Assembly (NCBI GenBank): GCA_025350905.1
Contig: JANXWY010000365.1
Coordinates: 1-38,001 of the forward strand
Reading direction: 5' to 3'
DNA from: Verrucomicrobiota bacterium
GTDB lineage: Bacteria; Verrucomicrobiota; Verrucomicrobiia; Limisphaerales; JADLHS01
Length of the DNA stretch: 38,001 nucleotides
Of this stretch, positions 18,580 to 22,614 are shown in pieces; within the stretch, counting starts at the first letter, position 1; each line of letters opens with the position of its first letter. Made by a program: the position numbers and the translations under genes. The notes under the pieces were generated by a model. It saw only the letters and a program-made list of their open reading frames with translations. It was not told where the DNA came from and did not search any database.

Positions 18580-19584
18580 TCACGCCGCCACCGCGAAGGC
18601 GATCGCCTCTTTCGCGACCGGTTGATCCCGTTCCTCCATTTTCGACCGCAGTTTCCTGAGGGCCTGCTCCTGAATCTGCCGGATGCGTTCGCGCGTGAGG
18701 TCAAAATGCTTGCCGACCTCTTCCAATGATCTTTCCTGGCCGTCCTTCAGTCCGAAGCGCAGCGCCAGGATCTCGTTTTCCCGCCTATCCAAAGTGGTCA
18801 GAACTTCCTTAACCAACTCGGTATCGGTTTCCAGAAGGACCCGATCAAACGGCGCTGCCGCATTGGGGTCCGCCACCACATCCGCGACCCGATTCGAATC
18901 GTCATCACCAATCGGTGCGTCTAGCGAAACCGGGGCGCGAGCCGCCTGCCGGTACAATTGGACGCGGCGGAGGTCGATTTGCAATTCATGCGCCAGCTCT
19001 TCATCCGTCGGGTCGCGTTCCAGCAGTTCGTGCAGCTTCCTTTCCGCGCGCCGGAGCTGAGCCACTTTATCCACGACATGCACCGGCAGGCGGATGGTTT
19101 TCGATTGGTTGGCCAAGGCCAGCTTGATGTTCTGCTTGATCCACCACGACGCGTAAGTCGAAAGCTTCGCGCCTTTCCGAGGGTCAAATCGTTCGACCCC
19201 TTTCATCAACCCGAGGTTGCCTTCGTTGATGAGATCGAGCAGCGGCAGTCCCAGTCCGTCATAATCGCGCGCAATTTTCACGACCAAGCGCAGGTTGGCC
19301 TTGATCATCTGCTCGCGCGCCTGTTGGTCCCCGCGCTTGATCCGTCGGGCCAGCACGATTTCTTCCTGCGGCGTCAGCAGCTTCACCAGGCCAATCTCGT
19401 TGAGATAAAGTTGCAACGAGTCACCATGTGCGTAGGCGGATCGCGCCGGCGCCCGTTCCGACCCGAACGGCAAATCAGCCCCAACCGATCGTGGTTTGGC
19501 CAGTCGGGACGAGATCAATTCCAAGCGCGGTGACGTAGGCTGGTTTTTCCGTGCGCCAGCAGTCGGTTTGAATGCAATTTTCAT
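18580..19584 (-). CDS. RNA polymerase sigma-70 family factor (regions 1.2-4.2)
   Basis: DSLQLYLNEIG, LLDLINEGNLGLMKGVERFDPRKGAKLSTYASWWIKQNI, SLEEVGKHFDLTRERIRQIQEQALRKLR; start MKIAFKPTAGARK at 19584. Confidence 0.95.
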   Translation of the reverse strand: MKIAFKPTAGARKNQPTSPRLELISSRLAKPRSVGADLPFGSERAPARSAYAHGDSLQLYLNEIGLVKLLTPQEEIVLARRIKRGDQQAREQMIKANLRLVVKIARDYDGLGLPLLDLINEGNLGLMKGVERFDPRKGAKLSTYASWWIKQNIKLALANQSKTIRLPVHVVDKVAQLRRAERKLHELLERDPTDEELAHELQIDLRRVQLYRQAARAPVSLDAPIGDDDSNRVADVVADPNAAAPFDRVLLETDTELVKEVLTTLDRRENEILALRFGLKDGQERSLEEVGKHFDLTRERIRQIQEQALRKLRSKMEERDQPVAKEAIAFAVAA

Positions 19585-19639
19585 AGTTTGTTCGCGGTTG
19601 CGTGGCAGGGCAAAAATTGATGACCATCCGGCTTGGGTT

Positions 19640-20290
19640 TCAAACTTCAGCCAGCACGTCCGCGTTGGCGAAGCGGACTTTTTTCGCGCCGGCAGACTTG
19701 TCGCCGCGGGCGCGATAACCGGCCGTCGCCACGACGACCGTGCGCAGGCTCTGGGAATTGAGGCCGAGAATGTTGTCGTATTGCGCCGGCTCGATGCCTT
19801 CCATCGGGCACGCGTCAATCCCCAAGAGGGCGGCACTGGTCAGGAAATTGCCCAGCGCGAGATAGACTTGATTCGCTGCCCAAAGTTGCCGTGCGACTTC
19901 GTCACGGCCCTTGATAAGGCTGCCCACCATCATGTCGCGATAACCCGCCAGGGACTCGGGCGTCACGCCGCGCACTTCCGCCATCCGGTTTACGTAGGCC
20001 GCGATGCTCTGCTCGCTGAGATGTTGTTTGATGGTGAAAACGACGAGATGCGAAGCGTCCACCACCTGCCGTTGCCCCCAGGAGGCGGGCAACAACTTTT
20101 CCCGCATCGCCGGGTCGGTGACCACCAAGAACTTCCAAGGTTGCAAGCCGAACGACGATGGGCTGAGCACCAAAGCGTCTTCGAGCGCCGCCCAGCATTC
20201 GGGATTGATCTTGCGCTGCGGATCGAATTGTTTCGTCGCATAGCGCCAGTTGAGTTGAGCCAACAATTGTTGGGGAGGAATCGAATTCAT
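19640..20290 (-). CDS. Nitroreductase family NAD(P)H-dependent oxidoreductase
   Basis: LNWRYATKQFDPQRKI, ALVLSPSSFGLQPWKFLVV, GIDACPMEGIEPAQYDNILGL. Confidence 0.93.
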   Translation of the reverse strand: MNSIPPQQLLAQLNWRYATKQFDPQRKINPECWAALEDALVLSPSSFGLQPWKFLVVTDPAMREKLLPASWGQRQVVDASHLVVFTIKQHLSEQSIAAYVNRMAEVRGVTPESLAGYRDMMVGSLIKGRDEVARQLWAANQVYLALGNFLTSAALLGIDACPMEGIEPAQYDNILGLNSQSLRTVVVATAGYRARGDKSAGAKKVRFANADVLAEV

Positions 20291-20354
20291 ACTATTGCGG
20301 TTCTTTCGTTAGTTAAGGTTTGAGGTCTGATCGGGTGGGAGAAAAAGGTTCGGC

Positions 20355-20687
20355 TCAGGCCGCCAGCGCCAAGCTTTCGAGGGTGAGCGCAATTTCCTGC
20401 CGGCTGACCGTACCCACACTCCGCTGACGCACTTGGCCGTCGGCGATGTAGAGCAGGGTCGGAATGGACTGAATGCCAAACCGCGCCGCCAGCGCAGGAT
20501 TTTCGTCCACGTTGACCTTGGCAACTTTCACACGAGCGGATTGCTGCGTGGCAATTTCGTCTAGCACCGGCGCGAGCATCTTGCACGGCCCACACCACTC
20601 GGCCCAAAAGTCCACCAGGACTGGCCCCGTGGATTGGAGAACTTCAACTTCAAAGTTCGCCTCGTTGATTTCAATGGTTGGTTTCAT
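20355..20687 (-). CDS. trxA: Thioredoxin
   Basis: VLVDFWAEWCGPCKMLAPVLDEIA, VNVDENPALAARFGIQSIPTLLY. Confidence 0.95.
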   Translation of the reverse strand: MKPTIEINEANFEVEVLQSTGPVLVDFWAEWCGPCKMLAPVLDEIATQQSARVKVAKVNVDENPALAARFGIQSIPTLLYIADGQVRQRSVGTVSRQEIALTLESLALAA

Positions 20688-20736
20688 ATTTTATTTTTTT
20701 GTCCGGGATTCATGGTCACGATCCGCTGACATCCGT

Positions 20737-21081
20737 TCAGGCGGCCAGGGCGAAAACCGCGCTGGTCTGCCGCACGGTTTGCTGACGGGCGACCCAGGCG
20801 ATGACCGCTTGAACTTTTTCTGTGGCGAGGACAGGGAAAACGAGCTCGGGATAAAGCGTTTGCCCGGCCACCGCCTCGGCCTCATTCAACGCCAACCGTA
20901 GCAGGTGCACTTGCGCCGTGAGCGCCGGGGACGACTCGGCAAAAATTGTCGCTTTGGCGGTGGAAATTTGCCGCCGCAACCTCGGGCCCGCGGCCGCGCC
21001 CGCCTTTTCAAGGCGCCGGCCGACGCTCCCCTTCCCGCCCCGGCCATAGCTATAATTCAAATTCATATTTTCATTTCTCAT
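20737..21081 (-). CDS. Small conserved-looking protein of unknown function
   Basis: Co-directional with short gaps; LLRLALNEAEAVAGQTLYPELVFPVLATEKVQAVIAWVARQQ; alternative start MNLNYSYG at 21066. Confidence 0.7.
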   Translation of the reverse strand: MRNENMNLNYSYGRGGKGSVGRRLEKAGAAAGPRLRRQISTAKATIFAESSPALTAQVHLLRLALNEAEAVAGQTLYPELVFPVLATEKVQAVIAWVARQQTVRQTSAVFALAA

Positions 21082-21084
21082 TTT

Positions 21085-21105
21085 ATGTAATTTCAGTTGT
21101 TACAT
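21085..21105. promoter_or_regulatory. Inverted repeat ATGTAA-tttcagttg-TTACAT, candidate operator (site 1)
   Basis: Perfect 6-bp arms in the gap downstream of rrf2; shares GTAAT-N6-TGTTACA with site 2. Confidence 0.5.
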
Positions 21106-21127
21106 TATTACTCAAAAAAAGAGACCG

Positions 21128-21574
21128 TCAACTGACTTTTTTTTGCCCACAAGCGCCGGAGGTCTTGACCATATCCAGGAGGGTCGCCAGCGTCGTTTTC
21201 TCCAGGTCCCGTTCCAAAGCGTTCTGGGCGGAAAGAAAAATCCGATTCAAGGTCTCCCGGATACAATTCCCCACCGGGCAGGCCGCATTCGGTTTGCGAT
21301 TCGGCGTGGCAAAGCTCTCAGAATCCTCAACCGCCCGGAAGACTTCGGCCAGATTGATGCGACCGGGAGAACGGCTCAGCCGAGATCCTGATCCGGCCCC
21401 TTTGCAAGTCTCCACCAGTTTGGCGCGCTGCAAGTCCAACAGCAGCCGACGAACCATGACCGGGTTGGTGTTGATACTACCCGCTAACAACGTGGACGTC
21501 ACCCGATCGCCCTCCTTGTAAGCGAGGACGGCCAGCACATGGACCGCCATGGCAAAACGACAACTGGTTCGCAT
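21128..21574 (-). CDS. Rrf2 family transcriptional regulator
   Basis: FAMAVHVLAVLAYKEGDRVTSTLLAGSINTNPVMVRRLLLDLQRAKLVETCKGAGSGSRLSRSPGRINLAEVFRAVE; AACPVGNC cysteines. Confidence 0.93.
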   Translation of the reverse strand: MRTSCRFAMAVHVLAVLAYKEGDRVTSTLLAGSINTNPVMVRRLLLDLQRAKLVETCKGAGSGSRLSRSPGRINLAEVFRAVEDSESFATPNRKPNAACPVGNCIRETLNRIFLSAQNALERDLEKTTLATLLDMVKTSGACGQKKVS

Positions 21575-21586
21575 AAACTGAACTTT

Positions 21587-21607
21587 AAGTAATCGTTTGT
21601 GTTACAC
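21587..21607. promoter_or_regulatory. Inverted repeat AAGTAAT-cgtttg-TGTTACAC, candidate operator (site 2)
   Basis: GTAA-N9-TTAC with the same spacing as site 1; 13 bp upstream of the rrf2 start. Confidence 0.5.
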
Positions 21608-21765
21608 TTGTCAAACAAAATTACCGCAAAGCTTTCGCTTTGGCTCTCGCCAGTTACCCGAGCCCGCCACAGTCCCAAGCCGGCGGCGGGCAACCCGTAA
21701 CTGTCAGACTTGACGAATGGGCTGGCCTCCGCGAAAGTCAATCGGCAACGAAACCAAAGCTGCTT

Positions 21766-22614
21766 ATGAAAAACCTGATCCTTCGGCAATCGCTGGCGGT
21801 GGTAGTGAGCGTGGCGGGGTTGGTTTATGCCACAGCGGAGGGGGCGGCGCAAAATTCTTCCACTCCCGCAGCCGCGACGGACACCCCCGCTACCGGGACC
21901 GTCCGTCAGCCCGCGTTGGTGCCACTCTCGGCGGGTGTTCCTGATGTGCTAAGGCTGGCGCAAGCTAAAATCGGCGACGACACCATCGTTGCCTTTATTG
22001 AGTCTTCCAAAACGGCCTACAAATTAAGTGCGACAGAAATCATCTACCTGCGGCAGCAGGGAATATCCGATCGTGTGCTCACCAGCATGCTAATGCAGCG
22101 TCCGAAATCGGCACCGGTCGCGGCGCCAACACCCCCGCCCGCATCAGCGCCATCGAACAATCTCAGTGCGAGCGCACCTCAATACGCGGCGAACTACGTC
22201 CCGACGTCACCGGCGGATGGATCGACTTCAACTATCTACGTCATGCCCAATTCATCGCCGGCGTACGCGTATCCCAATTACGGATATTATCCCTACGCCG
22301 GCGGGTATTATGGTTATGCCTACCCTTGGCTGTCCCTGGCTTATGGCGTTGGAGTTGGCTACGGCGGGTGGGGTTGTTATGGCGGCGGCTATTACGGGCG
22401 TAACTGCTACCGAGGCGGCTACTATTACGGGCACCGATATGGCGGAAACTGCTACTATGGCGGCTACCGCGGGGCGGGGTATGCGAGTGGTGCTTCAGCC
22501 GGCGTTTATCGCGGCGGAGCGACCTACGCCAGACCGCAAAGCATCGCTTACCATGGCGCCGGCAACGGGGGCGGTGGTTACCGAGGTGGAGGCGGAGGCG
22601 GGCGACATCGCTAG
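21766..22614 (+). CDS. Secreted YG-rich repeat protein
   Basis: Signal peptide MKNLILRQSLAVVVSVAGLVYATAEGAAQ; VPDVLRLAQAKIGDDTIVAFIESSKTAYKLSATEIIYLRQQGISDRVL; YGGWGCYGGGYYGRNCYRGGYYYGHRYGGNCYYGGYRG. Confidence 0.8.
   Translation: MKNLILRQSLAVVVSVAGLVYATAEGAAQNSSTPAAATDTPATGTVRQPALVPLSAGVPDVLRLAQAKIGDDTIVAFIESSKTAYKLSATEIIYLRQQGISDRVLTSMLMQRPKSAPVAAPTPPPASAPSNNLSASAPQYAANYVPTSPADGSTSTIYVMPNSSPAYAYPNYGYYPYAGGYYGYAYPWLSLAYGVGVGYGGWGCYGGGYYGRNCYRGGYYYGHRYGGNCYYGGYRGAGYASGASAGVYRGGATYARPQSIAYHGAGNGGGGYRGGGGGGRHR

Follow-up and report, generated by a model that had tools for sequence, protein, structure and literature searches.

The inverted repeat TGTAA-N9-TTACA led to the discovery of the Rrf2-family repressor SifR, which has been measured to bind it (PMC9218516). 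The same repeat is described as the core motif of HypR and was first recognised through HypR (PMC9218516). The cysteine that starts helix alpha5 of SifR reacts with quinones, after which SifR leaves its operator, and its targets (catE, ywnB, yhdA and fre) are scattered (PMC9218516). HypR senses HOCl/HOSCN via the C33-C99' intersubunit disulfide (PMC10715087), and SaiR is defined by a C-X7-C arrangement in its connector (PMC9218516).

The window, i.e. the whole stretch of 38,001 nucleotides that was analysed, contains an rrf2 gene with one such dyad on either side. We consider it very likely that the two dyads, O1 and O2, are operators of the Rrf2 protein encoded between them, which in its reduced form would repress two promoters, P1 and P2, and upon thiol modification would release them.

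The paired dyads and their candidate promoters

The upstream dyad, O1 (21587..21607, minus strand; GTGTAACACAAACGATTACTT), reads TGTAA-N9-TTACt and lies 12 bp 5' of the rrf2 ATG, rather than the 13 bp given in the initial annotation, where it was called site 2. O2 (site 1; 21085..21105, minus strand; ATGTAACAACTGAAATTACAT) is a perfect TGTAA-N9-TTACA. It begins 22 bp past the rrf2 stop codon and 18 bp ahead of the ATG at 21066, and the gene coordinates bear out its placement between rrf2 and the gene coding for a 109-aa protein. The two sites have GTAA-N9-TTAC in common and are indeed the matching 21-mers that had been reported, with 13 of 21 positions identical (counted by eye). The genome scan that had been proposed, carried out with the original degenerate pattern and up to two mismatches, returned two exact matches, which are the two sites themselves, plus one site with two mismatches. 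The pattern GTAAYN7RTTAC occurs at four places in the 6.27-Mb genome, namely O1, O2 and two positions on contig C382, both of which appear to be within coding sequence. The own-genome backgrounds used in this work comprise about 176 kb of genome stretches together with the window.

For the footprinting we collected Rrf2 orthologues from 18 other genomes (56-84% identical) and further homologues from related genomes. The 18 orthologous loci, 101,731 bases in all, contain 33 copies of GTAA-N9-TTAC, at the same two positions relative to rrf2. One hundred dinucleotide shuffles gave a mean of 0.18 and a maximum of 2, and with spacers other than N9 (from N3 to N15) these arms are found 0-2 times. 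The paired dyads are thus far above chance. It could be argued that arms of just 4-5 bp make a fortuitous likeness of two short AT-rich palindromes easy to obtain, but the four genomic places and the 33 occurrences against 0.18 render this practically impossible, and we regard the explanation as refuted by the shuffles and the footprinting.

The O1-equivalent dyad is found 26-43 bp 5' of the rrf2 start in 17 of the 18 close orthologues, and at the exception (L019) the contig reaches just 26 bp upstream of rrf2. The O2-equivalent dyad lies 14-33 bp past the rrf2 stop in 16 of the 18; it is absent from L014, which has a terminator-like palindrome directly 3' of rrf2, and from L017, which has a different gene downstream. 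Both dyads are present at the more distant homologues L036, L037, L038 and L041 (40-60% identity) and, outside the order, at L147, while L145 and L148 possess the upstream dyad; exact dyads were not found at some other distant homologues (L039, L040, L042, L144 and L149). Among 23-25 aligned sites the GTAA/TTAC arms are invariant, as the search required them to be, and the N9 spacer drifts; the flanking T/C and R/Y positions and a neighboring TTGACA are conserved although the search did not require them. An rrf2 locus of almost identical layout to those of Limisphaerales, with a disrupted rrf2 frame, occurs in an Acidobacteriaceae bin (PMBA01000024.1), probably as a result of mis-binning or lateral transfer.

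The TTGACA element (21609..21614, minus strand), a probable -35 box of promoter P1, is conserved 5' of the upstream dyad with 2-3 bp between them, its T, T, G, A, C and A being found in 21, 21, 20, 19, 20 and 22 of 25 loci, respectively. O1 would therefore fill the place of the spacer between the -35 and -10 elements of P1 and of the -10 element itself, which is poorly defined. The candidate promoter P2 (TTGACG-N16-AATAAT; 21104..21131, minus strand) is the only sigma-70-like site in 19500-22000, with 10 of 12 consensus matches, against 0.6 such sites expected. The first 2 bp of O2 fall within the -10 element of P2, and the -35 element overlaps the rrf2 stop codon. Across loci, TTGAC(A/G)-N16-NAnnAT stands 5' of the intergenic dyad, and the distance from TTGAC(A/G) to the dyad is kept in L008, where the stop codon is TAG and has moved, and in L018, where it has also moved; hence, the TTGAC element does not simply result from the stop codon. 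The P2 spacer contains, on the minus strand, about seven consecutive T and then a G (window 21110-21120), a feature conserved in most loci, and the 3' end of rrf2 is A-rich. These features refine the initial annotation in that they suggest O2 to be the operator of a separate internal promoter, rather than a mere second copy of O1.

The position of O1 within a promoter spacer also bears on the reading that the dyads work as RNA, in the form of a hairpin, attenuator or terminator. Inverted repeats can of course form hairpins, and a T-tract lies 5' of O2. Nevertheless, the folding energies are no better than those of shuffles (z -0.84 and +0.40), the minimum free energy structure of the O1 stretch leaves its two arms unpaired with each other, and the arms are without covariation in the collected sites, which were collected by fixed arms. 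The terminator scan was negative at both sites, and on this ground, together with the folding energies, we rejected the hairpin or terminator as very improbable.

A different objection is that only one of the two dyads works as an operator, the other being a remnant or a minor roadblock. It agrees with the departure of O1 from perfect symmetry (TTACT) in most loci and with the presence of O1 alone in L014 and L017, but we consider it quite unlikely, as the close orthologues keep both positions at equal frequency, O2 has conserved promoter elements of its own, and O2 persists in loci at 46-48% identity (L037 and L038). It was also suggested initially that site 2 could act on the divergent YG-rich gene. 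The comparison lends no support to this idea: the site is kept beside orthologous rrf2 genes though the YG-rich gene is not, save for one weak 28% low-complexity match (L036).

Among the matches listed from the 146 relatives searched, every close motif pair is an rrf2 locus, a recurrent second target is not evident, and at a distance from rrf2 the motif is matched no more often than a reversed control pattern. With pairs at rrf2 and no excess elsewhere in these matches, control appears to be local. This has consequences for the possibility that the dyads are bound by another regulator, encoded outside the rrf2 locus and acting on it (e.g. a CRP/FNR-like protein or some other wHTH protein). In its favor, TGTAA-N9-TTACA is a generic half-site design, and Rrf2 binding at this locus is deduced from sequence. 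On the other hand, the motif pair is confined to the surroundings of rrf2 across relatives (again among the matches listed), it tracks rrf2 while the downstream genes vary (109-aa protein, thioredoxin, HtrA-like protease, sigma factor), and it coincides with the operator measured for this protein class (PMC9218516). We therefore regard an outside regulator as unlikely, and retain Rrf2 as the probable ligand of O1 and O2.

The Rrf2 protein and its putative thiol switch

The product of rrf2 (21574..21128, minus strand; 148 aa) was assigned as a YwnA/SifR/HypR-like repressor according to Pfam, the match to 1xd7, the alignment and a fold search. Its membership in the Rrf2 superfamily is indicated by a PF02082 score of 99.1 bits against a gathering score of 30. 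The best sequence match among solved structures is YwnA (1xd7, E 5e-23), and the AlphaFold model retrieves 1xd7 and 1ylf first and also IscR and CymR, with superpositions that are loose owing to the moderate confidence of the model. The helix-turn-helix segment SINTNPVMVRR aligns with SVNTNPVVVRR of YwnA, and the CPVG motif is aligned as well. C99 and P100 are invariant in 17 aligned homologues, V101 and G102 are conserved in at least 90%, and a helix is predicted in the model to begin at residue 100, so that C99 provides the conserved Cys, within CPV and at the start of helix alpha5, that characterizes the YwnA/SifR class. C5 is likewise invariant in the 17 homologues, and C104 (CPVGxC) is present in most close orthologues. 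The position corresponding to HxxPNPxC reads NRKPNAAC, with PN and the Cys kept and the His and second Pro not. The operator of the class, TGTAA-N9-TTACA (PMC9218516), is matched perfectly by O2 and with one deviation by O1, and the match is conserved in orthologues. By sequence, the regulator is a YwnA-class relative of SifR and HypR.

More specific identities were considered and rejected. The protein is not HypR itself, since residue 33 is Ser and the NCBIfam HypR equivalog scores 51.3 bits against a cut-off of 180; nor is it SaiR, as it contains C99-X4-C104. An Fe-S sensor of the IscR/NsrR/RsrR type is excluded by the absence of the three-Cys ligand set, with C99 and C104 only in the effector region, and the regulator falls far below the cut-offs of the NCBIfam IscR and NsrR models. 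The same genome encodes a YwnA-class paralogue, 38% identical (G000:C463:9-398; L091), with a palindrome, CTGTTACTATTATAGTCACAG, upstream of position 404 on the minus strand, in which TTAC rather than GTAA points inwards; it is possibly a second operator type. This different-looking dyad implies that operator preference varies within the family.

As the dyads are conserved at orthologous rrf2 genes, coincide with promoter elements and match the SifR/HypR operator, the sequence data support the autoregulation and operon control by Rrf2 that the initial annotation had envisaged; with both dyads conserved and a known operator matched, the sensor most likely shuts off itself together with the downstream set. 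We propose the following scenario, in which the identity of Rrf2 as the ligand, its role as a repressor and the signal it answers are inferred. A reduced Rrf2 dimer would bind TGTAA-N9-TTACA; at O1 it would cover P1 and limit its own synthesis, and at O2 it would cover the internal P2 and keep the genes for a helical protein, thioredoxin, nitroreductase and a group-2 sigma factor off. Oxidants, or electrophiles such as quinones, would modify C99, perhaps by formation of a disulfide with C104 or C5, and the modified repressor would leave both O1 and O2, so that the operon would be induced. Once the stress is over, repressor made from P1 would restore repression, P2 being an independent start for the cargo. 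The addition of C5 and C104 in this clade indicates that the regulator is not strictly monothiol, and a disulfide may form either between C99 and C104 of one subunit or between C99 of one subunit and C5' of the other.

The downstream genes and their C-terminal tails

The first gene behind O2 (20737..21066, minus strand; its start, the ATG at 21066, was set by orthologue alignment) codes for the small 109-aa protein of no named family, for which neither Pfam nor NCBIfam gave a match. It is predicted to form a long helical hairpin (pLDDT 78), with residues 1-22 disordered, and in 13 further loci tblastn places it between rrf2 and the gene that follows. The family as such is common in Limisphaerales (42 of the 96 genomes searched), its members for the most part not being next to rrf2 and lacking dyads nearby (loci L119-L143). 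In the window, the gene is followed by a thioredoxin of 110 aa with the WCGPC motif (20355..20687, minus strand; TIGR01068, 122 bits, cut-off 96.8), found downstream of rrf2 in 14 other loci (tblastn), and by an NfsB-like nitroreductase-family flavoprotein of 216 aa (19640..20290, minus strand; Pfam PF00881, 77 bits). The latter scores 138.6 bits with NCBIfam PRK11053, under the cut-off of 227, and is present also in L006 and, shortened, in L033 (tblastn). The last gene (18580..19584, minus strand) encodes a group-2 (RpoD/RpoS-like) sigma-70 factor of 334 aa, in which Sigma70 regions 1.2, 2, 3 and 4 were matched and region 1.1 was not; its scores with the RpoD and RpoS models, around 310 bits, are below their cut-offs, and it has four paralogues elsewhere in the genome. 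The operon outlined initially may thus be extended, via thioredoxin and nitroreductase, to this sigma factor, although the sigma factor and nitroreductase genes could have promoters of their own.

A sigma gene lies 3' of rrf2, in the same orientation, at 17 further loci (L004-L013, L015, L016, L019, L021, L029, L033 and L038), and it is the most constant partner of rrf2 in Limisphaerales, even where thioredoxin and the small protein are missing. The alternative cargo includes an SDR dehydrogenase (L004), a DUF5069 protein (L006) and an HtrA-like trypsin-PDZ protein (L013, L036 and L037), and the distant homologues are accompanied by a flavodoxin-fold reductase (L147), an NmrA-like protein (L145) or a glyoxalase (L148). 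The theme of the downstream genes is repair under thiol and electrophile stress, combined with protein quality control. The strongest argument that O2 serves the cargo is that it stays at the head of these genes whichever of them comes first.

An ALAA or AVAA terminus is present in three of the five operon products, namely the 109-aa protein (VFALAA; 20737-20751), thioredoxin (SLALAA; 20355-20369) and the sigma factor (AFAVAA; 18580-18594; all on the window minus strand). The genome contains a tmRNA gene (L094, about 1502-1852; 151.8 bits) with the tag ANEELALAA (read by eye), and the ESLALAA terminus of thioredoxin matches six of the last seven residues of this tag. An AA ending is found in 3 of 142 own-genome ORFs of at least 150 aa, this sigma factor being among the three. 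In the orthologous loci, it occurs in 7 of 11 complete sigma factors, 9 of 14 homologues of the 109-aa protein and 4 of 14 thioredoxins; the pooled comparison, 20 of 39 versus 2 of 141 (Fisher p 7e-14), is made on related and hence non-independent sequences. Although the tails were noticed afterwards, this suggests that they are built-in ssrA-like degrons. It is tempting, though rather doubtful, to combine the Rrf2 thiol switch, the twin operators and the degron-tailed products (helical protein, thioredoxin and group-2 sigma factor, with the HtrA-like protease in some species) into a self-limiting circuit, where thiol stress would elicit a burst of sigma factor and thioredoxin followed by ClpXP-type clearance, at a speed possibly set by the protease load of tagged proteins.

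Comparison with described systems

Operators of the SifR/HypR type are already known, and are encountered here in a new phylum: if our reading is correct, this thiol-stress operator, measured in Firmicutes, also occurs in a branch of Verrucomicrobia that is uncultivated. What appears to be new is the layout, with one operator on the promoter of the regulator and one on an internal cargo promoter, together with the cargo of helical protein, thioredoxin, nitroreductase and group-2 sigma factor; we did not find this combination in the literature searched.

Like HypR of Staphylococcus aureus and its hypR-merA operon (PMC10715087, PMC9218516), the window regulator combines the core operator and the Cys99 position with a regulator-first operon that would be redox-controlled. 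However, with Ser at residue 33 the C33-C99' pairing of HypR is unavailable, and the cargo of HypR is the disulfide reductase MerA. SifR of Streptococcus pneumoniae, from the YwnA/SifR cluster, resembles the window protein in the conserved Cys in CPV at the start of helix alpha5, in TGTAA-N9-TTACA and in having redox enzymes as targets. It differs in that the window has two operators flanking the regulator gene, one of them on an internal promoter, that the scattered targets of SifR have no counterpart in a recurrent second target evident in the relatives, among the matches listed, that the window clade adds C104 and C5, and that thioredoxin and sigma factor genes are part of the operon. YwnA of Bacillus subtilis (1xd7), the closest solved structure by sequence and the top fold match, shares both CPVG and NTNPV; there the gene layout is ywnA-ywnB, and a description of the YwnA operator was not found in the literature searched. 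With IscR, NsrR and RsrR the window protein has the fold family in common, but not their three-cysteine ligand set.

A group-2 sigma factor usually comes last in the cargo, which implies that the local redox switch may trigger a wider transcriptional programme. In this respect the locus invites comparison with the SigR-RsrA-thioredoxin circuit of Streptomyces, where both a sigma factor and thioredoxin are governed by a thiol switch, the sensor being the anti-sigma factor of an ECF-type sigma. The outline of the two systems is alike; in the Verrucomicrobial locus, however, the sensor would be a DNA-binding repressor, of a different family, placed upstream of a group-2 sigma factor.
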